From contig OV696605.1 of assembly GCA_927797885.1 (NCBI GenBank), positions 2,765,157-2,829,156 of the forward strand: a stretch of 64,000 nt of DNA, given 5' to 3'. The notes beneath the pieces are model-generated. The model was not told where the DNA came from. It was given only the letters and a program-made list of their open reading frames with translations, and did no database searches. Of the stretch, positions 1-14,011 are shown piece by piece. The stretch is from Gloeomargaritales cyanobacterium VI4D9. GTDB lineage: Bacteria > Cyanobacteriota > Cyanobacteriia > Gloeomargaritales > Gloeomargaritaceae. The stretch's first letter is position 1, and each line of letters begins with the position of its first letter. A program made the translations under genes and the position numbers.

Positions 1-245
1 GTGAGCAGGATAAAAAATGTCGTCGCCAACTCCGAGGACTGGCGCAGCCGTTGACACACCTCCAAGCCCGTCATCCCCGGCATCATCCAATCACAGATCA
101 CCAACGCTGGCTGTAACTCCTGGGCGAAGTGCCAGCCCTGTACCCCATCCGCCGCCACCGTCACCTCATGCCCCTGCATCTTGAGATTGCGTTGCAACAC
201 CAAGCGCATCGTGGGGTCGTCATCAATCACTAAGACTTTTGCCAT
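1..245 (-). CDS. Response regulator receiver protein (3' end beyond window)
   Basis: Reading down from the ATG at 245-243, the 81 visible codons form the first two thirds of a CheY-like receiver domain. The acidic pair is at residues 8-10, the phospho-acceptor aspartate is D52 in the motif CDWMMPG, and a hydrophobic strand follows. The C-terminal lysine and any output domain lie outside the window. Such proteins take a phosphoryl group from a histidine kinase. The gene is divergent from the RsbW-like ATPase at 284, with only 38 bp between the two starts, so the promoters must overlap. The two may belong to one signalling module of the receiver/partner-switch type, but that is inference from adjacency alone. 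Confidence 0.9.
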   Translation of the reverse strand, partial: MAKVLVIDDDPTMRLVLQRNLKMQGHEVTVAADGVQGWHFAQELQPALVICDWMMPGMTGLEVCQRLRQSSELATTFFILL

Positions 246-283
246 ATAATCTACAATAATGGAAATTTCCGCTACCACTTGAT

Positions 284-748
284 GTGCCTCCTGGGAAACT
301 TGTGACTCCTGCCCTGAGTACCAGCCGGATTGTGGTCAACTCGGACATAGACGCCTTAGCCCAGGTGCTAGATTGGTTTGCCCAGTTCAATGTCCCTCCC
401 TTGACCTACGAAGTGTGGTGGTTTTGCCAGTTGGTTTTGGACGAAGGATTTACCAATGCGGTACGCCATGCCCATCGGAATTTGCCCCCCACCACGCCCA
501 TCACCGTCGAAGTCCAGGTATTTACGGACAGGATTGAAATGCGGATTTGGGATCAGGGTGGGGAGTTTGACCTCAACCGCAAATTGCAGGAACTCGACCA
601 AACGCCCCAAGACCTGGAACCAGAGGGAGGTATGGGGCTGATATTTTTACAAAAATTTGCGGATGTGGTGGACTACCGACACCATCCAGAACGACAGCAA
701 AACTGCCTCTTTTTGCGTAAAAATCTCGTTGCCGTTGCCAGTGCCTAG
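284..748 (+). CDS. RsbW-like anti-sigma factor serine kinase (HATPase_c_2)
   Basis: 154 residues of a GHKL-type ATPase of the RsbW/SpoIIAB class, which phosphorylates anti-sigma-factor antagonists or sequesters sigma factors. The N box is visible as LDEGFTNAVRHAH (about residues 52-64), the G1 box as WDQGGEFD, and the G2 box as EGGMGLIFLQ near residue 115. The length suits a stand-alone RsbW kinase. The start is a GTG at 284; the ATG at 259 is out of frame and a second GTG at 302 is an alternative. No antagonist (STAS) or sigma gene is visible nearby. It is divergent from a response regulator, so the pair may act in one stress or light signalling pathway (inference). Confidence 0.85.
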   Translation: MPPGKLVTPALSTSRIVVNSDIDALAQVLDWFAQFNVPPLTYEVWWFCQLVLDEGFTNAVRHAHRNLPPTTPITVEVQVFTDRIEMRIWDQGGEFDLNRKLQELDQTPQDLEPEGGMGLIFLQKFADVVDYRHHPERQQNCLFLRKNLVAVASA

Positions 749-834
749 CCCGGGAAATCTCCTCAAAAATCCTGCATCTTTGCCACTCAATCTAAACAAC
801 CATTCAACAGTCACACTTGAATGATGAGTAAAAT

Positions 835-947
835 TACAGTAAGTTCAAAAAAGTTTGCAACATTCGTCTTTGCCTACAATCCCTGTCCTAGAAGGGTATA
901 GAGCGATTATAAATAACTAAAAAGTGTCGCAAATCGAAATGACCATA
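835..947. repeat. Inverted-repeat element, family G (copy 1)
   Basis: Family G is a roughly 115-bp MITE-like element with ends of the type TATAGTCATTTC / GAATGACTATA and a core containing GTTTGCAACATTCG and AAAAAGTGTCGCA. This copy has partly decayed ends (left TACAGTAAGTTC, right GAAATGACCATA). Intact copies are at 38032 and 33590. Confidence 0.65.
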
Positions 948-958
948 CATTCTTTTAA

Positions 959-1079
959 GGACACCTCTATTAATTCATGGCTATTAAGAATGACCCCCGC
1001 GTTATTGATAATTGCCGACGAAAGAATGGGACTTCCAAGCCTGCCGTGTAAGTACAAAAATCAATAGACAGAAGTGCCT
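959..1079. repeat. Inverted-repeat element, family B (copy 1)
   Basis: Family B is a roughly 120-bp element with ends of the type GGGCACCTCTATTAATT / AATAGAGGTGCCC and an inner conserved block that includes ATTGATAATTGCC and GCCTGCCGTGTAAGTA. It has no coding capacity, so it is probably a non-autonomous element. Other copies are at 14109, 14845, 30799, 33546, 37942 and 43659. Confidence 0.75.
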
Positions 1080-1282
1080 GATGTTGTACTGCGATAAACG
1101 CTGAAAAATTCTGTTACAGCGAGAGATTTGCTAAAATTATGTCCCAGGCCATCATCAGTAAATTGCAACTCTCGAAAAGGGTAACTGTAGGTGTCACCTG
1201 AACAATTACACCGTTAGCATTCGATTGTGTCTGCAACCCACAAATACATAGGGCTTTACTCAATTTGTAATATGGTTTCCCC

Positions 1283-2390
1283 CAGAAGTGTTGAAAGGTA
1301 GGTAAAGGCAGAAAAAGAGGGGTCAAAATATGGTATTCTAATTCATATAAACCAAAACATGAAACAACTATGAAATTCAATTCTTTTCCCGGGATTGTCA
1401 AATTTTTACTCAAAGACCTGCCAACTAATGATTATCCAGTTCTAAATTCTCGCTTATTTTGTTCAATCTGGTTTGCTGGCATTTTAGACAAAGGAATCAA
1501 CAGTTTACGGGACTTATTTTACCAATTAAATCATGCGGGCATTAAGGTTGACTTATCCACGTTTTCTAAGGCGAACAAGACAAGAGACCCACAAATTTTT
1601 ATGCATCTTTATCATAAATTATTGCATTATATTGAGGAAGCTCATCCTGAAAAGAGGTTGGTTTTATGTCCTTTTGATGCTACCGTAATACCGCTGATGA
1701 GTAAGTTATTTTGGCTCCAAGGCTATCGCCAAGTAAAGTTAATAACCACTTTGAATCAAGATACGAAATCTACTGGTCATTTAATTGTTAGTCCTGGACA
1801 GGCACATGAGATTAATTTTGGTGAAGATATTGTGAAAATGCTACCGGAAAATGGAGTCGCAGTCGGGGATAGAGGGTTTTGCAGTCACAAAGTATTTGAA
1901 CAATTTATCGAAAATGATGCCCTTTTTATTATCCGTATTAAGTCGAATTGGAAATGGGATGAAAACTATCATATCACCACAGAACGAGGTAAGGCGAGAG
2001 TAGTTTGTTTTGGCAATGTTCAACAGAAAGTAGACTATTATTTAGCTACCAATATTCCTGAGGATGTAATGAGTAATGAAGAGATAGGGGAAGCCTATAG
2101 ACAACGCTGGGCGATAGAGGTACTATGGAAATTTCTAAAGATGAACTTAAAGCTCGATAAAATGATGAGTAAAAATTTGAATGGAATTACCATTCAAATT
2201 TATGTAATTTTAATAGTTTACTTGATATTGCAACTGTTAAAAGTTCCACGGATGTACGGAAGTAAATTGGCAGATAAGTTCCGATATATACAAATCTTAA
2301 TACGGCAGGAGTGGAATTTTGTCCATTGGCTCAATCGGGTCGTCCCACGCCTAAATATGTAAAGTTTTATTGCAGGATTCAACACTTGTG
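1283..2390 (+). mobile_element. IS4-family insertion sequence, copy 1 (1108 bp)
   Basis: Bounded by imperfect 13-bp terminal inverted repeats, CAGAAGTGTTGAA at the left and the complement of CACAAGTGTTGAA at the right. The boundaries come from comparison with the second copy at 58946-60053, which has the same length and the same encoded protein. The flanks of this copy (GGTTTCCCC and GTGTTGAAT) do not match, so no target duplication remains. The right flank runs straight into another IS-end-like sequence (see 2391-2560). Confidence 0.9.
1370..2362 (+). CDS. IS4-family transposase (copy 1)
   Basis: 330-residue DDE transposase. Landmarks are DATVIPL (first aspartate) near residue 105, VGDRGFCS (second aspartate) near residue 166, and the IS4-type Y-R-E-K signature in YRQRWAIEVLWKFLK near residue 243. 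It cuts and joins the ends of its own insertion sequence. The ATG at 1370 lies 87 bp inside the left inverted repeat and the stop lies 28 bp before the right end, which is normal spacing for a compact IS. The protein is identical to the copy at 58974-59966, so transposition or homogenisation was recent and the gene is probably intact. Its base composition is more A+T-rich than the neighbouring housekeeping genes. Confidence 0.95.
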   Translation: MKFNSFPGIVKFLLKDLPTNDYPVLNSRLFCSIWFAGILDKGINSLRDLFYQLNHAGIKVDLSTFSKANKTRDPQIFMHLYHKLLHYIEEAHPEKRLVLCPFDATVIPLMSKLFWLQGYRQVKLITTLNQDTKSTGHLIVSPGQAHEINFGEDIVKMLPENGVAVGDRGFCSHKVFEQFIENDALFIIRIKSNWKWDENYHITTERGKARVVCFGNVQQKVDYYLATNIPEDVMSNEEIGEAYRQRWAIEVLWKFLKMNLKLDKMMSKNLNGITIQIYVILIVYLILQLLKVPRMYGSKLADKFRYIQILIRQEWNFVHWLNRVVPRLNM

Positions 2391-2560
2391 GTGTTGAATC
2401 TTAAGATTTTGAGGGTTTGTGCCAAAATGTGCATCTAACCTGATGATACAAAACATTGTCATTTAGGAGCTAAATTCTCATTTATAACGAAAAATTTTCT
2501 CATTAAGTGTTTTGCCTGACTCGAATTTATGAACTTTTGTTGCGGGGTTCAACACTACTG
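2391..2560. repeat. Non-autonomous remnant with IS4-like ends
   Basis: Directly abutting IS copy 1. The left edge reads GTGTTGAATC and the right edge TTCAACACTACTG (2548-2560), matching the IS terminal repeat with one mismatch. The interior has no reading frame and does not resemble the transposase. The junction with IS copy 1 forms a perfect 10-bp inverted repeat, GATTCAACAC (2377-2386) and GTGTTGAATC (2391-2400), separated by four bases. Confidence 0.55.
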
Positions 2561-2716
2561 TAGAGATGCCCTTAAATTAATAGGTTGTCATGGTGAAATT
2601 CTTTTGACTACCCAACAAGTATTGGCAGTAGTCTACTAATCCAAAGCTGGGTGATTCCTGTGCCATTACTACACCTTAACTCTTCGTTTATTCTACTCCT
2701 ATGATCATGAGTCCTG

Positions 2717-5149
2717 TTAGTAAATATCCTTGCGTTTTTGTACCCAAAGTGTGATGACCAAATAAACCATCGTATGCAGGAGCAACACTGCCCAATTCAA
2801 CCCTAGATTCGGCAAGGTCGCCGTGAACATCGCCATCTCTTGAATGGGAATACTGTCCGGGTCCGTACCCGCCGGTACTCCTGGCACCAAAGAATTGACA
2901 TCCGCCAACGCTCCCAACGCCCCCACCGCCCACCGGCTGAGCATCAACCAGGAAACAAATCGCCCCTGATTGCCTAGGTCAAATAAAATTCCGGCAAAGA
3001 TAATTTGGGGGAGCAAAAGGAGGGGTAACGCACTATTCGCCTGCGCTGAATTTCGCACCATTGCGGATACCATTAATCCCAGAGAAACCGAGGTTAAAAT
3101 GGTTAAGAAAATGGTAATCAATACCCCTAAAGGCCAGGGGAAATAGTTGGGAAAACACAGGGCATCGGCACCACACAATCCCGGCGGCCAGCTAAACCCA
3201 ATCAGGATCACAGCGGTAATCAGGACACTCTGTAAAATTGCCAAGCCCCCTAGAGTCATCACCTTAGAACCCAAATAGGCAAACAATCCCAAATTCACCA
3301 ATCGTTCCCGTAGATAAATCGCCGATTCCTTGACAATTTCCTGCAACGAACTGGCAAAACCTGCCCACAATGCGGCACAGACAATCACAAAAATGACCCG
3401 CCGCGCCAAGGAAGCCAACACATAATCCGGTGCCCCGACAAAGGGATTTTGAGTTTGCACCGCCAAGCGAATTAACACAATTCCCAAGGGTGCAGTTGCC
3501 AAAGATAAAAATAGATAAACTGGGTCTCTTTTCAGGAGTTGACCATACCGCCCCACCAACACCCACAACTGCCGCCAAAAGGAAGCCTGCACTTTTTCCG
3601 GCTGAAAAGGCTGTTCATTCACCTGTCCAATCAAGCGTTCTTGGATAAATTTTTGGTAGGTTTCCGACTGGCGAAATCGCTCTGCTTCCTGCGCTACCGC
3701 CTCTCGGGTTTCTAATTTGATATAAATATCGGCAAAATCCTGATCTTCTAGGCCAAAAAATGATGCCGCTTCCTGGGGTGAGCCAAAGTAACATAAATTC
3801 CCCCCCAAACCCATAAACACCAAACGGTCGCATAACGTTACATTGGTAGTTGCGTGGGTTACCAGAATAATTGTGCGCCCTTGATCTGCTAACTTGCGTA
3901 ATAATTGCATGATTTTTTTATCCAAACCGGGGTCGAGTCCCGAGGTAGGTTCATCGAGGAAGAATAATTTGGGATCGGATAACAATTCCACCCCAATACT
4001 CACCCGTTTTAATTGACCCCCACTTAAACTTCGCACCAAGGTATCCTGCCGCTCCGTTAATTCCACTTGCCGCATCACCTGTTCAATGATCTCGTTGATA
4101 TTCACATCCTTAGGCAACCGCAGTTTTGCCGCATAATAAAGTACCTCTTTGACTGTTAGATTAGTGTGAACAATATCACTTTGCGGTACATAGCCAATAA
4201 TACTCCGATAGATATTAAAATACTTCCGTAAATCATCCCCATTCAAATACACCGAACCCTGGCTGACTGCTTCAATTCCCAATAGGCTTTTCATTAAGGT
4301 TGATTTGCCCGCCCCACTCCCCCCCACTAAAGCCACAAATTGTCCTGGCTCAATCACTAGAGAAATATCATTCAGAATGCGAATTTTTTGACCTTTTTTC
4401 CCAGTAACAACCTTCGCTAAATCCTTGGCATCCAAACGAATCCGATCCCCCTGGTCGGACAATACTAACATATCTCCTTGCAATACCAAACGGTAGGGTC
4501 CAATGGTAATCACATCCCCAACATTTAACGGAGCAGTAGTGACTACTTTTTTACCGTTGACAAAAACCCCATTCACACTGCAATCCCGGATCGTGTAGTG
4601 CCCTTGATTATCCTGAAAAATCACCGCATGGGAACGAGAAACGGTTGGGCCATCCAGTTTTAAATCTGCTTCCTGTCCCCGCCCTAAAATCACTGACGAA
4701 CGCCCTTTCAAGGATAGGGAACGTTTCTTGGGTGCAACGGGTTTGACCTGGGCAGAGGGGTGATGATAAGTAATCGTAATCGCTGTTTTGGGGTCTGTAC
4801 CAATGGTAATTTCATCCCCAGGATGCAAGAGATGTCCCTGCGCTGGCGTAATAATAGCATGGTTAATAAATAACCGATTCATACTCGAGGTTTGCCCATC
4901 TCCATCATGAATGGTGTAATGCTCGCCCGTCCGTCGAAACGTCGCCTGCACCCGACTAATATGCACCCACTGGTCGGGGATAATTAAACCTTCGGGCGGA
5001 GATTTACGGGGGGCGCGCCCCAAAACATGGTGTGGTTCTGTCAATTGAAAACGGATAATTTGTCCCTGATTATTGACCTCGATTTCTGGGTGCAATTTGA
5101 CAATTGTATCGGAAGCAATTATCGTTTTATCCGCCATGATTTCCCCCAA
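2717..5149 (-). CDS. ABC-2 type exporter with tandem FHA domains
   Basis: An 810-residue single-chain half-transporter. Two FHA (phosphothreonine-binding) domains come first, at about residues 35-125 and 150-225; the second has the typical LGRG and SRSHA motifs. An ABCG-like ATPase domain follows with Walker A GGSGAGKST (276-284), signature LSGGQ (375-379) and Walker B with LFFLDEP (395-401). An ABC-2 membrane domain with about six helices fills residues 560-800. It should export a substrate, perhaps lipid-like, from the cytoplasm under phospho-dependent control. It is the last gene of a five-gene minus-strand cluster and its start overlaps the HemN-like gene by 23 bp; the in-frame ATG at 5137 is an alternative. 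The substrate is unknown. The cluster suggests a product of the radical SAM enzymes (inference). Confidence 0.9.
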   Translation of the reverse strand: MGEIMADKTIIASDTIVKLHPEIEVNNQGQIIRFQLTEPHHVLGRAPRKSPPEGLIIPDQWVHISRVQATFRRTGEHYTIHDGDGQTSSMNRLFINHAIITPAQGHLLHPGDEITIGTDPKTAITITYHHPSAQVKPVAPKKRSLSLKGRSSVILGRGQEADLKLDGPTVSRSHAVIFQDNQGHYTIRDCSVNGVFVNGKKVVTTAPLNVGDVITIGPYRLVLQGDMLVLSDQGDRIRLDAKDLAKVVTGKKGQKIRILNDISLVIEPGQFVALVGGSGAGKSTLMKSLLGIEAVSQGSVYLNGDDLRKYFNIYRSIIGYVPQSDIVHTNLTVKEVLYYAAKLRLPKDVNINEIIEQVMRQVELTERQDTLVRSLSGGQLKRVSIGVELLSDPKLFFLDEPTSGLDPGLDKKIMQLLRKLADQGRTIILVTHATTNVTLCDRLVFMGLGGNLCYFGSPQEAASFFGLEDQDFADIYIKLETREAVAQEAERFRQSETYQKFIQERLIGQVNEQPFQPEKVQASFWRQLWVLVGRYGQLLKRDPVYLFLSLATAPLGIVLIRLAVQTQNPFVGAPDYVLASLARRVIFVIVCAALWAGFASSLQEIVKESAIYLRERLVNLGLFAYLGSKVMTLGGLAILQSVLITAVILIGFSWPPGLCGADALCFPNYFPWPLGVLITIFLTILTSVSLGLMVSAMVRNSAQANSALPLLLLPQIIFAGILFDLGNQGRFVSWLMLSRWAVGALGALADVNSLVPGVPAGTDPDSIPIQEMAMFTATLPNLGLNWAVLLLHTMVYLVITLWVQKRKDIY

Positions 5150-6578
5150 AGATTTCCTGGTGATGATAGGGATTCAAATCTCCATTGGCATAATCTGAAC
5201 GTGGGAAAGGAATATGGTCTGGATGATGAAATTGTTGTGCCACTTCGTCAGCAAAAAATGCTCCCAGAGGTGTCAATTCAATTTTTTCTTCATCCTCAGT
5301 CAGTAAACCGTGTTTTTTCAGGGCGTTAATTTTCAGGCGAAATACCTCATTTAATGAGTAATTGGTTACTTGATGGAAGTAACTTTTCCACACCCGCCGG
5401 TTCTTCAAAGGTAAGACAATTGCCCAGCGAATTTGTTGCTCTCTACTGCGAATTAATCCCCGATTCAAGGGCAAACGACGCTCAGCGATCATTCGATAGT
5501 ACTCATCAAAGTTTTGGGTATTCAGGCCGAACCGATCCCGTAAACTGCTAAACGCCGTTAACCCAAACCCCAATTGATCCAATAAACCACAGCATTGATT
5601 GTCCGCATAGTGGGAATAATATTCAGGCTTTTTAGAAAACACCCGCCGCAGGTTTTCCCGATAGCCATGAGCGTTGAGAATATTAATTGCCGCCTGCTTC
5701 ATAGCAAGAGTTTCCTGCACTGTAGGCACCGCTTCGGGATGGCGTTCCCGTTGATATTTAACCGAGCCTTGATAATCTCCATAGGCTTCAAATTTCAAAC
5801 GATATAATTGAATTTCATGCACTCCCAAACCTACCGCCTGTTCGATCACCGCCATCCAATTTTCTAAGGTCTGCCCTAGATAACCAAAAATAAATTCAAT
5901 ATTCACCTGAAAGCCAAATTTCAGAGCATCACTAATGGCCTCTAATGCCTGCTCTGGCCCATGATGCCGGTTCATCAATTTCAGAGTCGCCGGATTCAAG
6001 GATTGTACTCCAATGGTGAGGCGGTCAACCCCATAATCCCGCATCATTTTCAAGCGTTCATTGCCCTCTTTGCCAATTAAGGTCACTGGGTCAACATCGT
6101 AATTGTATTGGGTACATTCCCTACGATCAAGGCGGCGGTCTAATATCTGTAAAAATCGCTCTAATTGGTCTAATGCGAGATAAGTTGGCGTACCGCCCCC
6201 CACCAAAATTGAACGGGCTTTGAGACGGGTATAACCCAGCCGTTCCATGTAAATATCCATCTCCTGGGCAAACGCCGATAGATACTGGTCTTTTTCTGAA
6301 CGACGCTCTCCCAATTGCACTGGATAATGGCAAAACAGACACCGTTGCCGACAAAAAGGCACATGGGCATAAATGTCAAATTTGCCATCCGCTGGCGGTG
6401 TATAAGTCGCTAATAATTCCTCCGGGGTGAACGGCGGATACATGGTAATCGGTGGATAATGCACAGAAGGGAAAAAATCCCCTGAGCGCATGATTAAACC
6501 TAACGATTGTAACTTCTCGTACTGCGCCAGCCGTTCGTTAATATGCTCTGTGTATGGGGATGACTCCAAAACCAACAT
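5127..6578 (-). CDS. HemN-like radical SAM protein
   Basis: 483 residues, close in length to HemN. The [4Fe-4S]-binding motif is C76-x3-C80-x2-C83 within CRQRCLFC, followed by HY rather than the D-F/Y usual in HemN/HemW. The SAM-binding GGGTP is at 127-131, and a HemN_C-like tail follows. HemN relatives include anaerobic coproporphyrinogen dehydrogenase, HemW haem chaperones, HutW/ChuW haem-degrading enzymes and class C radical SAM methyltransferases. The context (second radical SAM gene, methyltransferase, exporter, no haem genes) fits a class C-type modifying enzyme at least as well as haem synthesis. That is inference. It overlaps the downstream ABC gene and lies 109 bp after the methyltransferase gene. 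Confidence 0.8.
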   Translation of the reverse strand: MLVLESSPYTEHINERLAQYEKLQSLGLIMRSGDFFPSVHYPPITMYPPFTPEELLATYTPPADGKFDIYAHVPFCRQRCLFCHYPVQLGERRSEKDQYLSAFAQEMDIYMERLGYTRLKARSILVGGGTPTYLALDQLERFLQILDRRLDRRECTQYNYDVDPVTLIGKEGNERLKMMRDYGVDRLTIGVQSLNPATLKLMNRHHGPEQALEAISDALKFGFQVNIEFIFGYLGQTLENWMAVIEQAVGLGVHEIQLYRLKFEAYGDYQGSVKYQRERHPEAVPTVQETLAMKQAAINILNAHGYRENLRRVFSKKPEYYSHYADNQCCGLLDQLGFGLTAFSSLRDRFGLNTQNFDEYYRMIAERRLPLNRGLIRSREQQIRWAIVLPLKNRRVWKSYFHQVTNYSLNEVFRLKINALKKHGLLTEDEEKIELTPLGAFFADEVAQQFHHPDHIPFPRSDYANGDLNPYHHQEIFGGNHGG

Positions 6579-6687
6579 CGTATTACCCCCTCAAAATTAC
6601 CAACAGGAAAAAAGATACTGATGTTAGATATATCATGTAATGCCTAAGCTCCAGGGGATTTCGCAGAAAAATTTCAGATTTGGGGAG

Positions 6688-7764
6688 TTAAACCGCTTCA
6701 AAAATTAACATATAGCGTTGCGGGATAAAGGCATATTCCCGTTTGAGCTTAAAGCCATAAAAGCGCAACTGATGGATGATTAGTTCTTTAGCGACATAGG
6801 GACCGTGATACGGTAATTGCCCCGGTTCTACCAGTCCATTGTCCACCAATACCAAAGTGCCACCGGGTTTCAACGCCGCTTTAATACTTTGCACAAAACT
6901 GTCCCGGTCGGGTGCCGTACTCATGCCATAGATATTGTGATACAAAGAACACATAAAAGCCACATCCACCTGTTTCCCCTGTAAGCCGATGGTGGTGCCA
7001 GGATAACTATTAATCGTCGTGATATTTGTAATATTCTGCCGTTGGATATAGCGATTGATATAATCCAAATGTTGTTGTACTATATCGACACTATAAACGT
7101 GACCTGTTGAGCCTACTTTCTCGCTAAAACGAACGCTGTAATAACCTGGCCCACTGCCAACATCGGCAATGGTCTGACCAGGGGAAAGGGGTATCACAGA
7201 AAGAACCTTACTGGTTTGTTCCCATTCCTCACGAGCCGGGTTGTTAAATAAGATAAAATCCTCTAAAAAGGCGGCTCGATTGCGACCCGTTTCCGTGAGT
7301 TGGTCTGGGTATTGTTGCAGGAGATATTTACGTTGAACGTATTCTTTGAGATTGGCAAAATTATTTTCTGCAAAAAAGTCATAAAAACTAGCCACAAAGG
7401 GGTCTTGCAAGGCTTTCTGTTTTTCCGGTTCAGACATCAAAAATAATTGGGCGAACCAACGTAATGCACTATATTCCCCCCCATAATTTTCCCTAGGAAT
7501 GATTTGGTCATAAATTTCAATGGCTTTTTGAGCCGCCTCCCGACTACCGCTGACTAACATTTCCAAGATATAACGTCCAGCTTTGATACCGTCCGGGGTA
7601 ATGGCAAACGAATCATTAGTCCCCACATGAATCAGGGACATGGGTGACGTAATGGCTACCCGGGGCGTTAATAACTGGGGTATAGCAAAGGTATAGGCAA
7701 CCCAGACGATAACGCCAGTCATGAAACTAACAATAAGCCAATGCACTGAACGAGATAGTTTCAT
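6688..7764 (-). CDS. Membrane-anchored SAM-dependent methyltransferase
   Basis: 358 residues. An N-terminal hydrophobic segment (about 9-29) is an anchor or uncleaved signal and places the rest on the membrane, possibly outside the cytoplasm. A helical region of unknown role spans about 55-170. A class I Rossmann methyltransferase domain follows, with motif I DVGSGPG at 201-207, the acidic residue of motif II near VDIV and a post-motif LKPGGTLVLVDN. It would transfer a methyl group from S-adenosylmethionine to an unknown acceptor. Only 15 bp separate it from the upstream HydE-like gene. If the orientation were N-in it could use cytoplasmic SAM. An export-type signal would make a SAM enzyme puzzling, so an anchor is more likely. 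Confidence 0.85.
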   Translation of the reverse strand: MKLSRSVHWLIVSFMTGVIVWVAYTFAIPQLLTPRVAITSPMSLIHVGTNDSFAITPDGIKAGRYILEMLVSGSREAAQKAIEIYDQIIPRENYGGEYSALRWFAQLFLMSEPEKQKALQDPFVASFYDFFAENNFANLKEYVQRKYLLQQYPDQLTETGRNRAAFLEDFILFNNPAREEWEQTSKVLSVIPLSPGQTIADVGSGPGYYSVRFSEKVGSTGHVYSVDIVQQHLDYINRYIQRQNITNITTINSYPGTTIGLQGKQVDVAFMCSLYHNIYGMSTAPDRDSFVQSIKAALKPGGTLVLVDNGLVEPGQLPYHGPYVAKELIIHQLRFYGFKLKREYAFIPQRYMLIFEAV

Positions 7765-7779
7765 CCCTAGTTTTACTCC

Positions 7780-8769
7780 CTAAATTGCCACTGGGCGCAC
7801 GGTCATACCCGCTTGTTGAATAATCGTTCTGGCATGGTCTAAACTCACCACAAAACGCCGTTGCGAGTAAATCACATATTTTGTGCGACATTGGGGCGGC
7901 GTGAAGTTAATCGTAATCACATTTGCCCCGGCATTTAACCCCGCCAATTGACCGCCAGGTTCTAACTTTTCCAAGGCACTCACCGTAGGAATTAACGCCT
8001 GGGGTAAAAGCATCCGAAAAATCGCCATGATGTTTAGCGTCCGCCTGAGACTCCCGGATTTGTGTTCCGAAAAGGGGGTATTTTCATTGGCAATAAACGG
8101 GGAAGCGCTGGCAAAATCCGGTTGAATTTCTTGGGTCAATAATACATCTCGCACCAAGGTATCGAGGGTTTGTCCGGGTAGCCCGACGATATTCCCCGTT
8201 CCCACTTGAAAACCCAATTCCTGAAGCCAGCGAATACACTGCAAACGCCGGGTCAATGAGGTGTAAGCAATTTGGCGATACCCTGCCGGTTCTGAGGTTT
8301 CAAATTTGAGAATATAAGAATCGGCTCCCAACGCCCGCCACCGCTCATAGCTCGCCCGGGGATATTCCCCCAAACAGAGCAAAATATGCAAACCAAATTG
8401 CCGTTTGGCGGTGGGGATCACCTCCTGTAAAATGGCATCGCATTCCGGATCCTGACCAGCCTGTAAAAATAAGGTGCCAATGCCCAAACGATGAATCTGT
8501 GCAGCAATATCTAAAATTTCCGCCGCCGATAAACGATAGCGGTCTAGCTTTTGATTGGCCGCCCGCATGGCGCAGTAATTGCAATTTTTTTGGCAGAAAT
8601 TGGAAATTTCAATCACACCCCGTAAATGGACTTGATCCATTTGATACTGTTGCCGCACCCAACGAGCCTGGGCAAAGAGTTCCTGCTGTAATTCCCCTTC
8701 GGCATCAATTAATTCCCCCAAAGAGTAACCTAGAATTCTCTCGGTAGGTTCAGCGACTAAGGCGTACAT
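7780..8769 (-). CDS. HydE/PylB/BioB-like radical SAM protein
   Basis: 329 residues. The cluster motif is C59-x3-C63-x2-C66 in the context ISNFCQKNCNYC, and the following RYRLS and LFLQAGQD segments are typical of the HydE/PylB branch of the biotin-synthase superfamily, rather than of true BioB. Known members make the dithiolate ligand of [FeFe] hydrogenase (HydE) or methylornithine (PylB). No hydF, hydG or pylCD gene is in the window, so neither role is supported. It is the second gene of the cluster, 51 bp after the LTXXQ lipoprotein and 15 bp before the methyltransferase. It may build or rearrange a small molecule or ligand that the next enzymes modify (inference). Confidence 0.82.
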   Translation of the reverse strand: MYALVAEPTERILGYSLGELIDAEGELQQELFAQARWVRQQYQMDQVHLRGVIEISNFCQKNCNYCAMRAANQKLDRYRLSAAEILDIAAQIHRLGIGTLFLQAGQDPECDAILQEVIPTAKRQFGLHILLCLGEYPRASYERWRALGADSYILKFETSEPAGYRQIAYTSLTRRLQCIRWLQELGFQVGTGNIVGLPGQTLDTLVRDVLLTQEIQPDFASASPFIANENTPFSEHKSGSLRRTLNIMAIFRMLLPQALIPTVSALEKLEPGGQLAGLNAGANVITINFTPPQCRTKYVIYSQRRFVVSLDHARTIIQQAGMTVRPVAI

Positions 8770-8820
8770 TCTTACTCCTAAAGCAGATGGTATTGAGCAA
8801 TGGGCGGCTGTAATATTTCA

Positions 8821-9591
8821 TCAACCAGGTTGGGGGGGTGTAAATTGAAACTTTTGACCCTGGAGCGTTTCCACCAATTTCTTTTGCTCTGGAGTTAATA
8901 TGGCAAGGGCTTTAGCGTTACTTTCCTGAAGAATTTGATCCATGCGTTTGCGGTTGGTGGCAATGATCTGTTTGTTGTCGGCTCCCTTTTCAGGAACTTT
9001 CAAATTGATCCGCATACTCGCCCAGGTATCATCCCGCAATTTCTTGAGTTTGGCTTGTTGCTCCGGGGTGAGTTTCAACTCTTCGATAAAATGCTCGTAG
9101 GAGAGGATGCCAAACCCATAAATTTGTAGGGTAATTTCTTTGAAACGTTTGAGTTGCGCTGGGGTGAGGACTTTCCCCACTTCATCCCGGGCGATGCCCA
9201 CTTCTTTTTCCAGTTCATCTTTGATTTGATCTAATTTTTTTTCCCGCTCCGCCGGTTCCATTTGCCCCAGGTTTAAGCCGGAAACCAAAGCGCGCGCCCG
9301 TTGCCGAAATTGATCCCCGATGGCTTTGATTTTGGCCGATTGCTCGTCGGTAATATTAAGTTCTTTTTTAATTTGCGGATTTTGGAATAACTCCAGGGGA
9401 TCCGTGCCACTCCGTTCCGTCCCTTGGGTACCTATGGTAATGGGATTATCGCCCTCGGCGCTAGATATTGGACTGGGAGATTCTGTAGGAGCTGGGGTGT
9501 CGGGTTCAGTTGGACTGAATAGGTTACACCCGGAGACGAAAAACAGACTCAGAAATAGAGCCAGTGGTGTGATTCTAGCAACTGTTTTCAT
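8821..9591 (-). CDS. LTXXQ (Spy/CpxP-like) lipoprotein
   Basis: 256 residues with a signal peptide ending in the lipobox VSGC at about residue 22, so it is probably lipidated and periplasmic. A Pro/Ser/Thr-rich linker follows. The rest is helical with repeated LTPxQ motifs (LTPAQ near 142, LTPEQ near 174 and 229), the signature of Spy/CpxP-type proteins that chaperone envelope proteins or sense envelope stress. Two LTXXQ units appear to be present. It is the first gene of the cluster that runs to 2717, so the promoter should lie in 9592-9790. Its role may be to hold an exported product or envelope component in solution (inference). Confidence 0.82.
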   Translation of the reverse strand: MKTVARITPLALFLSLFFVSGCNLFSPTEPDTPAPTESPSPISSAEGDNPITIGTQGTERSGTDPLELFQNPQIKKELNITDEQSAKIKAIGDQFRQRARALVSGLNLGQMEPAEREKKLDQIKDELEKEVGIARDEVGKVLTPAQLKRFKEITLQIYGFGILSYEHFIEELKLTPEQQAKLKKLRDDTWASMRINLKVPEKGADNKQIIATNRKRMDQILQESNAKALAILTPEQKKLVETLQGQKFQFTPPQPG

Positions 9592-9793
9592 CGCTATTAA
9601 CGCCCCTCGATACAGTGAATCTTCAAGATTGAATTATAACTGCGGATGTCAACGATATTGATATTGTTAAGGTTTGTAATTTTTTGTCGGCCATTTTCTT
9701 AATAAAAAATTAAAAATAGGGTACATCTTTGAATGATATGGCATCCTACTCGTTGGCCTGCGTTTGGAAGGCATTTAACAAACGGAAATTCTC

Positions 9794-9898
9794 TATAGCT
9801 AAACACGCAAAGGTTGACATAGATATGGGTCGCAGGGCGTAGCTACGCACTGGTTCTCCAGAATTTTTGAGGCGACAACCTAACCGTACTTAGCTATA
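9794..9898. repeat. Inverted-repeat element, family E (copy 1)
   Basis: 105 bp with ends TATAGCTAAACACGCAAAGG and CTTAGCTATA; inside lie GGTTGACAT and its near-complement GCGACAACC. The other copy (38253-38377) is inserted inside an A element. Confidence 0.7.
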
Positions 9899-10052
9899 GA
9901 AGCAAGGACGGGACAGTGCCCTGCAACCCTTGATGTTCTGGTGTTGCTAAATCTGTGTATGATTCCTGAGAATCTGAGTTTGGAAAAGCCGACAGATATA
10001 AGAGGTTTCGGTCGCCCTTAAGATGAATTTCATACCACCAATCAGTCATGTT

Positions 10053-10146
10053 TATAGCAATCCCACTTGATTAATCAACAGAAATTTCCCAGGATTAAGG
10101 ACGGGGGAGTGCCCCGCCGATATTTCCATTGGTAATCGTTAAGATT
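10053..10146. repeat. Family A element, decayed right end
   Basis: Family A is a 100-140 bp element with perfect ends TATAGCAATCCTA / TAGGATTGCTATA and a GC-rich centre containing ACGGGGGCGGTGCCCCTGCG. This copy keeps the left end and centre but not the right end. Confidence 0.6.
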
Positions 10147-10182
10147 CCTTGCTGATGATGGGAGCGTAAACCCCCGGGTAAG

Positions 10183-10293
10183 TTACAGTTATTATAGGAT
10201 ACAGCTAAAACTCTACTTGTCATAGGTCAATCAGCTTGAGTTTTTAGAATAATCAAGACTTTTTGTATCCCTTAATTTATAAATAGACTGTAA
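10183..10293. repeat. Inverted-repeat element, family C (copy 1)
   Basis: Family C is about 118 bp with ends TTACAGTC / GACTGTAA and inner inverted segments GGATAC and GTATCC. This is the most diverged of four copies (30640, 33787, 61728). Confidence 0.6.
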
Positions 10294-10465
10294 GGAATTT
10301 TTTATGATTTGCCCCGGTATCCCCCCAGGAGCGAGCCATAAACTGGATGGAAACGGCGGTGCGGTGGCGGCACGGGACGTGGATGCTGTTTGTTGGCGGT
10401 GTTTGGGGTGATCAGTTTGTTGAGGTTGCCCTTGGCACTGCAACCAGGGGGAAACCGCCCGGAAA

Positions 10466-11386
10466 TTACCTAAACCTGTTCCTAAGCCGAAAACGGGCTT
10501 TCCGCAATCCTGTCTCCCACAGGTAAAAATGTCGCCAACGAGGGGATAAGAACCTTTTCATTAACCATTTACTACCCCCCAAACAATGAATACCCCAGAA
10601 ACGAATATATTCTTGTGTGACTTGATTGTAACCATAGGGAATCCCATCCCTAAAGGTTAATTGCTTGAGACCAAACCGTTGGACATATTCATTATCCAGA
10701 TAATTTCCAGCAAGGGAAATGCCGTGGTCAAACGTAGCACCATTGAGTACTGAGCTAAAATTAGCCACATCAGTTCTGTTTTGACTCCAAGCATAAATTA
10801 ATGTCATATCACAAATACCGCCGCCAATCCGTTGAGAAGCCATCTCTTGATAGGTCGTTTTGAGTAAATTTAGCCATTCGTCTTCCCGATAAGCACGGAT
10901 GCAAAAATCTGTTAGTTCAGCCGCCGCTTCAGGTGTCCAAAACGAGAAATGTGGTGATGACATCCACAAGGGGTGACCCGGGTTCTTCGGTGTCATAAAA
11001 CCGGCTTGATATTCATTCTTTATCAGTGGGTAAACCTCTTGAGTATAGTCAGCAAAAGTTACCACATCACTATCAATTAAAAAAGCACCATTGACTGCTG
11101 CAGTTTGTAGCCAATAGTCCATCACGAATAATCGAAATAAAATTGCCTTTTCGTAGTGTTCTGGATAGTTAGATAGTTTAATGTAACTATTTTCAAATTC
11201 CACCCATTTAGGTATTGTTACGCCACTGATACTCCAATGATTTGCCCAGGCGTTTTTGTTGCCATCATCCCCAATAAAGATCACGTCTTGGTTCCATCGC
11301 GCCGCCGCTTCCAGGGCATATTTCAAATACTCTGGTTGGTTACCAAAATGGGCAATTACCACAGGGATGTTGGTTGTCTGTACCAT
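10466..11386 (-). CDS. Putative glycosyltransferase (GT-A-like), function unknown
   Basis: 306 residues. The N-terminal part reads like a nucleotide-sugar transferase: a strand (IPVVIAHFG), a second strand followed by an acidic turn (VIFIGDDG) and the metal-binding-type motif DSD within AFLIDSDVV near residue 105. Later acidic and aromatic motifs (GGGICDMTLIYAW) fit an acceptor region, and the C-terminal tail is rich in Arg and aromatic residues. No membrane segment is seen, so it is probably cytosolic or peripheral. Sugar donor and acceptor are unknown. It lies 8 bp after the 195-residue gene and is the last gene of a three-gene minus-strand set. I do not recognise the exact family. Confidence 0.6.
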   Translation of the reverse strand: MVQTTNIPVVIAHFGNQPEYLKYALEAAARWNQDVIFIGDDGNKNAWANHWSISGVTIPKWVEFENSYIKLSNYPEHYEKAILFRLFVMDYWLQTAAVNGAFLIDSDVVTFADYTQEVYPLIKNEYQAGFMTPKNPGHPLWMSSPHFSFWTPEAAAELTDFCIRAYREDEWLNLLKTTYQEMASQRIGGGICDMTLIYAWSQNRTDVANFSSVLNGATFDHGISLAGNYLDNEYVQRFGLKQLTFRDGIPYGYNQVTQEYIRFWGIHCLGGSKWLMKRFLSPRWRHFYLWETGLRKARFRLRNRFR

Positions 11387-11394
11387 GTTTCTCC

Positions 11395-11982
11395 CTAAAC
11401 TTTAATCGCCTGGGGTAACGCCTGAGCCGCCACCACCCGGTCGCACCCGGAAGCGGGTCGTGCCCACTGGTAACGGTACTCCTTCGGGTCGCCCCAACAC
11501 AACCCCAAGTATAGTTCCGTGCGGGTGGCATCCAGTTCCAACCATTCCGCCTGGGTAAGGGCTTGGGTCAATTCCGCTACCGTGACTGGCCGGGTATGCG
11601 GATGCACCCACCAGTAATCTAACCCCTGGGTGTAACGCCACCAGAAATCCAGCACCGCTTCCTTGGCGGCCATTAACCGCTCCTTGTCCCCCTCGATGGC
11701 ACATAACTGCCCATGCACCTCCGGCACCGCCAATTCTGCCCCCCGAAACCGACAGGTACGCCAGATGATCCCGGAGACCCCCTGGGTGCGCTGGTATTCA
11801 TGCACCTGTGCCCGGAAATCCTCAAACGCAAACACCATACTCAGCCGCTCCGGGGGAATCGCCAGGGCAATCACCGCATGACCCACCCGCTCCCGCACCG
11901 AAGGAAGCCAGCGTTGCCCCTGCCAATTGGCCTGCAATTCCTGCTCCAGAATCTGGATCAACTCGCGGGTGGTGTACGGCAT
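11395..11982 (-). CDS. Conserved hypothetical protein, cyanobacterial
   Basis: 195 residues, no signal peptide or membrane segment, rich in Trp and Arg. The start MPYTTRELIQILEQEL looks like a small helical N-terminal module of about 30 residues. The central part has alternating hydrophobic stretches and a motif VIALAIPPERLSMVFAFEDFR. It resembles hypothetical proteins widespread in cyanobacteria but I cannot name a domain with certainty. It sits between the 56-residue small gene (32 bp upstream) and the putative glycosyltransferase (8 bp downstream), so the three are probably co-transcribed. Function unknown. Confidence 0.7.
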   Translation of the reverse strand: MPYTTRELIQILEQELQANWQGQRWLPSVRERVGHAVIALAIPPERLSMVFAFEDFRAQVHEYQRTQGVSGIIWRTCRFRGAELAVPEVHGQLCAIEGDKERLMAAKEAVLDFWWRYTQGLDYWWVHPHTRPVTVAELTQALTQAEWLELDATRTELYLGLCWGDPKEYRYQWARPASGCDRVVAAQALPQAIKV

Positions 11983-12014
11983 GAACCGACCATGAGGGAT
12001 AATGACCGACCGTG

Positions 12015-12185
12015 TTAGTCCAAATAGCCCATCAAATCAGCCACCGGCGGATCGACCTGGTTGGGTGCTACCGGTCGCCCCATCACGACTTTCGTTGGTT
12101 TCACCAATGCCCCCGCTGGTTCCGGAGCCGCAGGCAGGGTGCCCACGGGCTGGGAGGCAGGACCGACTGGTTTTGGCTGAGCCAT
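12015..12185 (-). CDS. Small conserved protein, 56 residues
   Basis: The ATG at 12185 is preceded by CTGGAG about ten bases upstream, and the longer frame starting at 12302 has no such site, so the short form is preferred. The product is rich in Pro, Val and Ala, with no predicted helices or membrane segment, and ends in the acidic tail PPVADLMGYLD. The ordered C-terminal tail after a disordered Pro-rich body looks like a short linear interaction motif (inference). It is the first gene of the minus-strand set that continues to 10466. I cannot name a family. Confidence 0.65.
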   Translation of the reverse strand: MAQPKPVGPASQPVGTLPAAPEPAGALVKPTKVVMGRPVAPNQVDPPVADLMGYLD

Positions 12186-12553
12186 GATACTGTACTCCAG
12201 AATATCTTTATAATTCCATCTTAGGCGGACTTTTGCCCCAATGACCGTCTGACCTCTCCCCACCCCCCCAGGTTTAACTATCATGAACCATCCCGCAATC
12301 ACGGTTGAATTGTGAGTAAAAATTTTATCCTTAGTAACGTTACGGGTCGCAGGGCACCGCCCCGCCCCGGTTCTAATCGCCTTGTTACTCGCATCCCCCG
12401 TCTAAAATGGCTATAAAATAAAGTTGAAGAAAGTATTAAAAATTCAAAACACTGTGAACAAGCGGTAATTTTAACGACGGGGGCTTCACAAAACCTAGTC
12501 AATCTGGGGATTGCCCCTGAGAATAAAAATAATCTTCATTGCATACCTACCCC
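12186..12553. other. Divergent intergenic region with repeat F1
   Basis: It separates the small minus-strand gene from the plus-strand membrane protein gene. It holds F1 (12294-12425). No strong promoter match was found by eye. Confidence 0.5.
12294..12425. repeat. Dispersed repeat, family F (copy 1)
   Basis: Shares with 46985-47172 the left block AATCAC..TTGAATTGTGAGTAAAA, the centre GCAGGGCACCGCCCCG (partly) and the right block AAATAAAGTT. A left-block fragment is at 58846. Confidence 0.55.
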
Positions 12554-13054
12554 ATGACTCCACGATTGTTTACTCCTACCAACTACTGGCCGCTGGTGGT
12601 GAGTTTGACTTTGATGTTTTGGCTGGGAGCGACTTTGGTGCTGGATGTGCTGGTGATGCCGGGGCTATATTGGGGCGGCATGATGCACCAGAGCGGGTTT
12701 GCCAGTTTTGGGTATCTCCTATTTAGCTGGTTCAACCATGCGGAACTGCTCTGTGCGGCTTTGGTGATGACCAGTGTGTTGGCGCAAACCCTCGGGCAAC
12801 CCCAGCGCTATTGGCCGGGTCTGGCTCTCGCCGGGATTTTGGTGGGGATTGTTCTGCTCTATACCTATATTTTGACCCCCTGGATGGGGGAAACCGGTTT
12901 ATCCCTGGACTGGCTGGATCAAGATACGCAGGAAATGGCCGTGCCCGCCACCATGAACCTGTTACACGGCGGTTACTTTGGCTTGGAATTGCTCAAGGTG
13001 ACGGTGGCCGGGGGATTGCTCTGGTGGCAGTGGCGTTTCCTGCCCGCTGATTAG
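12554..13054 (+). CDS. Integral membrane protein, unknown function
   Basis: 166 residues from the ATG at 12554; a TTG five codons earlier (12539) is possible but less likely. Four hydrophobic segments are visible: about 14-36 (LVVSLTLMFWLGATLVLDVL), 50-75, 85-105 and 140-160. The conserved-looking polar residues GFASFGY and HAELLC lie between helices 1 and 2. It resembles the DUF4149/TMEM205-type small membrane proteins but the match is not firm. It converges with dgkA, and the two stop codons overlap (13051-13054). No operon partner is seen. Confidence 0.75.
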   Translation: MTPRLFTPTNYWPLVVSLTLMFWLGATLVLDVLVMPGLYWGGMMHQSGFASFGYLLFSWFNHAELLCAALVMTSVLAQTLGQPQRYWPGLALAGILVGIVLLYTYILTPWMGETGLSLDWLDQDTQEMAVPATMNLLHGGYFGLELLKVTVAGGLLWWQWRFLPAD

Positions 13055-13470
13055 GCTAGGGACGCGGGCACCAGCAACAACCCTGCAATAACCAGGGCGG
13101 CCAGGGCAGTGACCAGAACGGCGGCGGCGGCACAGTCTTTGGCAATGCGGGCGAGTTCATGGTACGTTTGGCCCACGGTCAAATCCACCACCGCTTCCAG
13201 CGCCGTATTCACCAGTTCCAAGGCCAACACCAAGCCAATCGTCAGGACAATGATGGCGGTTTGGGGCAAAGGTAAATGCACCCCCGCCGCCCAGAGCAAC
13301 GCCACCGTGCCGATCCCCAGGTGGATGCGGAAATTCCGTTGCGTACTCACGGCGTAGTGTAAGCCCTGTCCCGCATAGAAAAAGCTCTGCGCTAAATTGC
13401 TTCGATGGGTAGGGCTTGGTACAGGGGGAGTGCTAGTTACAACCGATGACATCATAAGTGCTATCCTCAC
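13051..13470 (-). CDS. dgkA: Diacylglycerol/undecaprenol kinase, DgkA family
   Basis: 139 residues with a 30-residue polar N-terminus and three membrane helices. The family signature is clear: ELVNTALEAVVDL (about residues 85-97) and the ARIAKDCAAAAV segment near 108. DgkA enzymes phosphorylate diacylglycerol or undecaprenol at the inner membrane using ATP, recycling lipid for phospholipid or cell-wall synthesis. Gram-positive-type and cyanobacterial members tend to be undecaprenol kinases; which substrate applies here cannot be read from sequence. The start may be one of the internal ATGs (residues 6 or 7). The gene converges with the membrane protein gene, sharing four bases at the stops. 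Confidence 0.9.
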   Translation of the reverse strand: MRIALMMSSVVTSTPPVPSPTHRSNLAQSFFYAGQGLHYAVSTQRNFRIHLGIGTVALLWAAGVHLPLPQTAIIVLTIGLVLALELVNTALEAVVDLTVGQTYHELARIAKDCAAAAVLVTALAALVIAGLLLVPASLA

Positions 13471-13507
13471 ACTCGGTTAGCCTATAGTTTAGCAAGCCAT
13501 TTCCCCA

Positions 13508-14011
13508 ATGCCCTGGCAAGACCTGCTTCGTCCCCGCCTAACGCACCCAGGCCCGGTCACTGATTTGGATGTAGGGTTCCTCCGCTCCCAGGCGGTGCAG
13601 GGGATTGTGTTGGACGTGGACGATACCCTGGTGCCCGCCCACGTGCAGGTGATTCCGCCCGGGGTGGTGGACTGGATGGCTCAACTCAAAACCCTCGGTC
13701 CGGTCTGGTTGGTGAGCAATAATGTCCTGGTGTCACGGATTGGGGACATTGCTGAGCAATTGAATTGTCCCTACATCTGTGGGGCTGGGAAACCCTCCCG
13801 CCGCAAACTCCGCCAAGCCCTGCAGGGGATGAATTTGCCCCCGGAGCGAACCGCCATGATTGGGGACCGCCGCTTGACCGACATCCTGGCGGGCAATCGC
13901 CTGGGGATGTACACTGTTTTGGTGGAACCGATTGCCGCCCCCCGCTGGCAACAACTCCGTAACTTAGAAGATTGGTTAGTCAATATATTGCTATATGGCA
14001 ATCCCACTTGA
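13508..14011 (+). CDS. YqeG family HAD-type phosphatase, tail altered by a repeat
   Basis: 167 residues. HAD motif I is DVDDTL (about 36-41), motif II is VSNN near residue 70, a lysine follows in GAGKPS, and motif IV is IGDRRLTDI near 117. This is the HAD-IIIA/YqeG phosphatase family, close to plant and cyanobacterial phosphatidylglycerophosphatase-like enzymes that dephosphorylate PG-phosphate at membranes; the exact substrate is inferred. The family core ends around the PRWQQLR segment. The last six or so residues, LLYGNPT, and the stop codon are read from a family A repeat (13990-14092). The 3' end of the gene is also the left junction of the 736-bp tandem duplication. Confidence 0.88.
   Translation: MPWQDLLRPRLTHPGPVTDLDVGFLRSQAVQGIVLDVDDTLVPAHVQVIPPGVVDWMAQLKTLGPVWLVSNNVLVSRIGDIAEQLNCPYICGAGKPSRRKLRQALQGMNLPPERTAMIGDRRLTDILAGNRLGMYTVLVEPIAAPRWQQLRNLEDWLVNILLYGNPT

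Follow-up and report, generated by a model that had tools for sequence, protein, structure and literature searches.

A mobile gene set linking a HydE-like and a HemN-like radical SAM enzyme to an exported methyltransferase in Gloeomargarita and other bacteria

Which process, if any, unites two radical SAM enzymes, a methyltransferase, an exporter and a periplasmic lipoprotein in a single row of cyanobacterial genes? The question is raised by five genes of a Gloeomargarita relative whose genome comprises 3.16 Mb in a single contig. The sequence-only reading took them for a route of synthesis, methylation and regulated export of a small molecule or envelope lipid. Positions refer to the window, i.e. 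the whole stretch of 64,000 nucleotides that was analysed; genomes and loci used for comparison carry G and L numbers.

Layout and linkage of the gene set

Re-reading of the open reading frames agrees exactly with the initial description of five minus-strand genes. Along this strand, the LTXXQ lipoprotein is followed by the HydE-like enzyme, the methyltransferase (MT) and the HemN-like enzyme at gaps of 51, 15 and 109 bp, and then, with a 23-bp overlap, by the exporter with two FHA domains (FHA-ABC) (Table 1). The domain content is borne out by Pfam: PF07813 is found in the lipoprotein, PF04055 in two proteins, one of which also has HemN_C, methyltransferase domains in MT, and ABC_tran, two FHA stretches and ABC2_membrane in the exporter. 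Order and spacings recur unchanged in G085/L039 and L045, and for MT-HemN-ABC in G354, all of them Gloeomargarita genomes or MAGs.

Table 1. Features of the cluster and their positions in the window
Feature	Position	Strand	Evidence
LTXXQ (Spy/CpxP-type) lipoprotein, 256 aa	8821..9591	-	lipobox VSGC; PF07813, 4.5e-13
HydE-like radical SAM enzyme, 329 aa	7780..8769	-	CxxxCxxC intact; TIGR03956, 258.8 bits
Exported/membrane-anchored class I SAM methyltransferase (MT), 358 aa	6688..7764	-	Pfam Methyltransf_31/25/11
HemN-like radical SAM enzyme, 483 aa	5127..6578	-	PF04055 + PF06969; CxxxCxxC
Tandem-FHA ABC exporter, ABCG/Rv1747-like architecture	2717..5149	-	PF00498 x2, PF00005, PF01061
TATAAT, possible -10 box 5' of the lipoprotein start	9633..9638	-	alignment of four Gloeomargarita sequences

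The surroundings of the cluster are less uniform. Directly past the exporter gene lies an IS4-type transposase (DDE_Tnp_1; window 1370-2362) at the place where G085 has a lepA-like gene, so the region has probably been rearranged near the IS element. On the upstream side, a 306-aa open reading frame (window 10466-11386) has by eye the look of a glycosyltransferase and no Pfam or NCBIfam match. Between this frame and the lipoprotein gene, TATAAT and a AAACCTTAA-type stretch (window 9633-9685) are conserved in four Gloeomargarita sequences; since no TTGACA is present at 17-bp spacing from TATAAT, the -10 box is a tentative reading. An HLR1-like stress-regulator site was considered for the same stretch, which has mismatches to it.

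The sequence-only reading had allowed for local chance, should the genes prove unlinked in relatives, and had proposed a search for co-occurrence and order across cyanobacterial genomes. The families occur in the same few genomes, and linkage is kept in most relatives. Among 390 genomes of the class, MT (searched at 1e-30) and the HemN-like protein (1e-60) were each matched in the same six (G000, G085, G241, G354, G087 and G101); in this search, three other Gloeomargarita congeners and one sister genus had neither. The HydE-like protein was searched in 292 Cyanobacteriota genomes, where two congeners encode versions with 95% and 87% identity, a pair of genomes from another family has 62-63%, and a pair from a third family 44-45% (compare the loop-less relatives below). 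Most other photosynthetic genomes of this sample give weak matches (E 1e-7 to 1e-19), and HydE proper, at ~33-40% identity, occurs in many small genomes that do not belong to the class (family f31, probably Gastranaerophilales). With its motif intact, the HydE-like protein has the same genome set as MT and the HemN-like protein, within its own 292-genome sample.

A scan of GTDB contigs yielded 14 named loci with linked relatives, two of which are genomes already counted (L048 is L041, and L058 is L042). Organism names are record titles, and one MAG labelled Borreliella is evidently mislabelled. The hosts include Cyanothece, Desmonostoc, Crocosphaera, Chlorogloea, Aphanothece and Anabaena, with Nostocales among them, and outside the cyanobacteria two Chromatiaceae MAGs, Ca. 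Thiosymbion and a Methanothrix-labelled MAG, possibly an archaeal carrier of the gene set; strain records with relatives are Anabaena sp. FACHB-1237 and Cyanothece sp. BG0011. Four of the five families are clustered in unrelated cyanobacteria and in gammaproteobacteria. The usual core order elsewhere is LTXXQ-HydE-MT-EamA-HemN, and these five genes are linked in eight independent loci (L041, L042, L046, L047, L049, L052, L054 and L057), the HemN-like gene being divergent in L047 and L049 and first in L054 (Chromatiaceae). The fifth core gene, which encodes the transporter EamA, does not occur in the window; L051 has no MT within the 20 kb examined, and L050 no HemN. G241 carries the genes in two pieces, LTXXQ-HydE-MT at 1.51 Mb and, next to a translation-GTPase gene read as lepA, HemN-ABC at 1.37 Mb; none of the five is lost, and HemN remains coupled to ABC.

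Pairwise distances of the protein families correlate with r 0.84-0.94, as expected if the families moved together; host relatedness contributes to these values. Joint presence and absence, linkage in distant loci and parallel divergence rule out local chance as the origin of the cluster. The gene set is conserved, mobile and functionally coherent, with catalytic motifs and export signals retained. The individual families are known; in open-licence papers, no description was found of clusters that combine HydE-like, HemN and exported methyltransferase genes.

Two radical SAM enzymes

Taken at face value, the HydE-like enzyme would be a true HydE that serves H-cluster maturation of FeFe hydrogenase: it passes the curated HydE model TIGR03956 by 4 bits (258.8 against a cut-off of 254.6), and among solved structures T. 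maritima HydE comes nearest to it. This reading is rejected, and we regard it as practically excluded. Fe-hydrogenase (PF02906) was found in 0/5 cluster-bearing genomes, and those searched contain no HydG or HydF above cut-off; the earlier statement that no hyd gene accompanies the cluster holds genome-wide for these three. In a tree calculated without the outlier L023 (from G111, 28%), the cluster sequences and HydE proper lie on opposite sides of a branch with an SH-aLRT of 100. The two groups are fixed differently at 25 aligned positions, including T134, R155, R159, M224, T268, T269, T273, R279 and M291 (T. maritima numbering, Tm). T134, R155, R159, M224, T268, T269 and M291 are replaced by L, S, K, F, V, S and T, respectively, in 16-17 of the 17 cluster sequences and are kept in 23 of the 24 references (23 sequences 49-59% identical to T. 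maritima HydE plus the 28% outlier L023); several of the changed residues presumably line the HydE substrate cavity. The cysteines and Tm R54, E161, R180 and Y306 are kept, as is Y303 in 15 of 17. As judged from these comparisons of sequence, the HydE-like protein is a separate radical SAM subfamily, distinct from H-cluster HydE: the assignment to HydE-like radical SAM enzymes stands for the domain (PF04055, CxxxCxxC), and that to true HydE falls despite the crossed cut-off. The curated model attaches the label of hydrogenase maturase to a radical SAM subfamily of oxygenic phototrophs that have no hydrogenase partner for it.

Two HydE-like relatives lack the entire CQKNCxYCAMRAxN loop (L043:1595-2521 in G123 and L044:15257-16174 in G111). 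These pseudo-radical-SAM proteins nest among the cyanobacterial members of the cluster clade; neither genome has a close HemN-like gene, and each loop-less gene adjoins a gene of 400-418 aa.

The HemN-like enzyme keeps CxxxCxxC, and a tyrosine replaces the fourth cysteine of HemN (CHY versus CGC in the alignment to E. coli HemN, 1olt); CxxxCxFCHY is found in 13/13 HemN-like relatives. No curated HemN-type model is reached, all NCBIfam scores being far under cut-off: the best match is STM4012 (166.6 bits, cut-off 380), and the model of HemN coproporphyrinogen oxidase, TIGR00538, scores 155.1 bits (cut-off 324.95).

Exported proteins and transporters

According to its AF2 model (pLDDT 86), MT consists of a TM helix (5-32), a linker (34-50), a helical domain (57-173) and a Rossmann domain (178-357). 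A Foldseek search of the PDB matched the Rossmann part (best 3dh0, E 1e-12; the matches include 3ocj, described as a possible exported protein) and gave no identification of the N-terminal helical domain. Neither the SAM loop D-GxGPGYY nor D227 varies across MT orthologues. All bacterial orthologues have a signal peptide or signal anchor, judged by eye and with a hydrophobicity scan, which argues that MT probably works outside the cytoplasm. In Gloeomargarita, the N-terminal anchor is preceded by positive charges, and some Nostocales MTs are also membrane-anchored; MTs of L042, L052, L053, L054 and L055 begin with a classical signal peptide whose cleavage site is of the Ala/Gly type. The original term "membrane-anchored" for this class I enzyme needs correction: MT is an exported enzyme, at several loci with a cleavable signal. 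The Methanothrix-labelled MAG encodes a 734-aa chain that contains two MT domains in tandem and no signal peptide (L056:7604-9808). Near the cluster of Chlorogloea lies a second exported methyltransferase-like gene (L050:2005-2784), 28% identical to MT over 236 aa.

The lipoprotein has a lipobox and scores 50.2 bits with PF07813 (gathering score 24.3), which matches two stretches, i.e. two LTXXQ-type halves in one chain; homologues of 23-91% identity occur in most loci. Its AF2 model is disordered at the N-terminus and then all-helical. A fold search of the PDB with this model gave no match at E<=0.001, the weak best hits including a VirG-like STV protein and CnrX. We consider it a putative periplasmic helper.

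Among the transporters, EamA is encoded directly after MT in 10 loci and scores best, under cut-off, with a carboxylate/amino acid/amine transporter model. It does not occur in the Gloeomargarita clusters, where the nearest protein is a 30% relative encoded elsewhere. EamA proteins carry many solutes, and the DMT superfamily to which they belong also includes Arn flippases. Amino-acid permease genes are present at L053, L054 and L055, and MacB/FtsX-HlyD exporter genes at L047 and L049.

The start of FHA-ABC overlaps the end of the HemN-like gene to the same extent in L039, in L045 and at the relocated site in G241. The gene is upstream and divergent in L041, L046 and L057 and on another contig in G087, and orthologues at 54-57% also occur in genomes without the cluster, for which reason FHA-ABC is rejected as a core member. 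It is an associated gene and a frequent neighbour: of its proposed membership in the cluster, presence and linkage hold in Gloeomargarita, core status does not, and EamA is the transporter conserved elsewhere. Ser/Thr-kinase-like genes are found near the clusters of L040 (4683-6167), L045 (5117-6631) and L046 (14840-16867) and are possible partners of the FHA domains; no Ser/Thr kinase is among the open reading frames read in window 1-14000.

A possible pathway and its relation to known systems

Conserved linkage, joint presence and absence, and parallel divergence support the view of the cluster as a unit for making, methylating and exporting a compound. With a confidence that falls short of even, we favour a dedicated, horizontally mobile pathway in which two radical SAM steps in the cytosol precede export, and methylation follows late, on the periplasmic side. 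It builds on the gene set as observed, linked and jointly present or absent, with both CxxxCxxC motifs, the SAM-binding fold, and export signals on MT and the lipoprotein. The HydE-like enzyme, being of the BioB/PylB/HydE type with a small-molecule substrate, and the HemN-like enzyme would work one after the other in the cytoplasm, starting from a small precursor that may resemble an amino acid. Their intermediate may exit via EamA, or in Gloeomargarita via FHA-ABC, which would be translationally coupled to the HemN-like gene; anchored MT would then carry out a final methylation on the periplasmic side of the inner membrane, where the Spy-like LTXXQ protein may hold or protect the product or the enzyme. 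The recurrence of transporter genes (EamA, amino-acid permeases, MacB/FtsX-HlyD) and the retention of all five genes in the split block of G241 count in favour of this pathway; the signal-less MT of L056, the Gloeomargarita clusters without EamA, the loci short of MT (L051) or HemN (L050) and the absence of a cytosolic precursor-making gene common to all loci count against it. A RiPP precursor peptide was considered and discarded, as the intervals between the genes offer no conserved space for one. The linkage provides a ready gene list for reconstitution.

Other arrangements of the same parts are conceivable. Tailoring of an envelope lipid, with the radical SAM enzymes altering the lipid or its head group, EamA or FHA-ABC flipping it and anchored MT methylating it at the membrane surface, is unlikely but deserves consideration: Gloeomargarita and some Nostocales have a membrane-anchored MT, glycosyltransferase-like genes lie beside several clusters, and the architecture of FHA-ABC is that of Rv1747 (PMC5549992). 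However, enzymes of the HydE/BioB type use small soluble substrates, several loci have a cleavable MT signal peptide instead of an anchor, and no lipid-biosynthesis gene is conserved. Metal or metalloid handling by a metallophore or metal-methylating system, with LTXXQ as a ZraP/CnrX-like metal-binding partner, would accord with the LTXXQ family, the weak structural hits to CnrX and the best, if weak, MT scores being those of ArsM models. We nevertheless hold it to be very unlikely: no metal-resistance genes are common to the loci, the ArsM score is 36.8 bits against a cut-off of 263, and MT has one near-invariant cysteine, missing in L055, but not the conserved cysteines of ArsM. MT as an ArsM-type arsenite methyltransferase is thus unsupported.

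With its exported MT, the mobile gene set raises the question of the methyl donor outside the cytoplasm. EamA might export SAM, or swap SAM for SAH, so that exported MT methylates a target in the envelope; this target or its precursor would come from the radical SAM enzymes. The range of solutes of EamA proteins and the Gloeomargarita clusters that keep MT without EamA render this improbable. In its favour, exported MT keeps an intact SAM site, EamA directly follows MT in the 10 loci mentioned, and the characterised SAM antiporter of Rickettsia is an EamA protein (PMC5615194), which makes EamA a candidate SAM supplier. It is a similarly long shot that the whole forms a self-contained extracytoplasmic system, in which EamA supplies SAM and exported MT finishes the product of a new BioB/HydE-class enzyme and a HemN-like enzyme of new chemistry.

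Several components of the cluster have counterparts among known systems, from which they depart in specific ways. FHA-ABC combines two FHA domains, an ABC ATPase and an ABC-2 membrane domain like Rv1747 of Mycobacterium tuberculosis (PMC5549992, PMC3908365) but is linked to radical SAM genes, with no adjacent kinase gene in the window. The cluster EamA and the Rickettsia SAM antiporter (PMC5615194) are alike at the level of the EamA/DMT superfamily; the EamA gene is, however, missing from the window. With the periplasmic proteins Spy, CpxP and ZraP (PF07813), the lipoprotein has LTXXQ motifs, an all-helical build and export in common, whereas it contains two LTXXQ-type halves and has no significant fold match. 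H-cluster HydE (TIGR03956; T. maritima 3CIW) shares fold, CxxxCxxC, R54, E161, R180 and Y306 with the HydE-like enzyme, which differs by its own clade, its 25 group-specific positions and the lack of HydA, HydF and HydG; every intact HydE-like relative is instead linked to a HemN-like gene, an MT gene or both. HemN and the HemN-like methylases (1OLT; NocN, 9P2U; STM4012) have in common with the HemN-like enzyme the radical SAM domain, a HemN_C-like tail and CxxxCxxC; the cluster enzyme, in contrast, is without the fourth cysteine and has a conserved motif of its own on the N-terminal side, FFPSVHYPPIT. In CC-1065, cyclopropanation is a two-gene affair of C10P and C10Q, a HemN-like enzyme and a class I methyltransferase. 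The cluster likewise pairs enzymes of these two kinds; it differs from the C10P/C10Q system in its exported methyltransferase, the additional HydE-like enzyme and the lack of any conserved NRPS or PKS gene.
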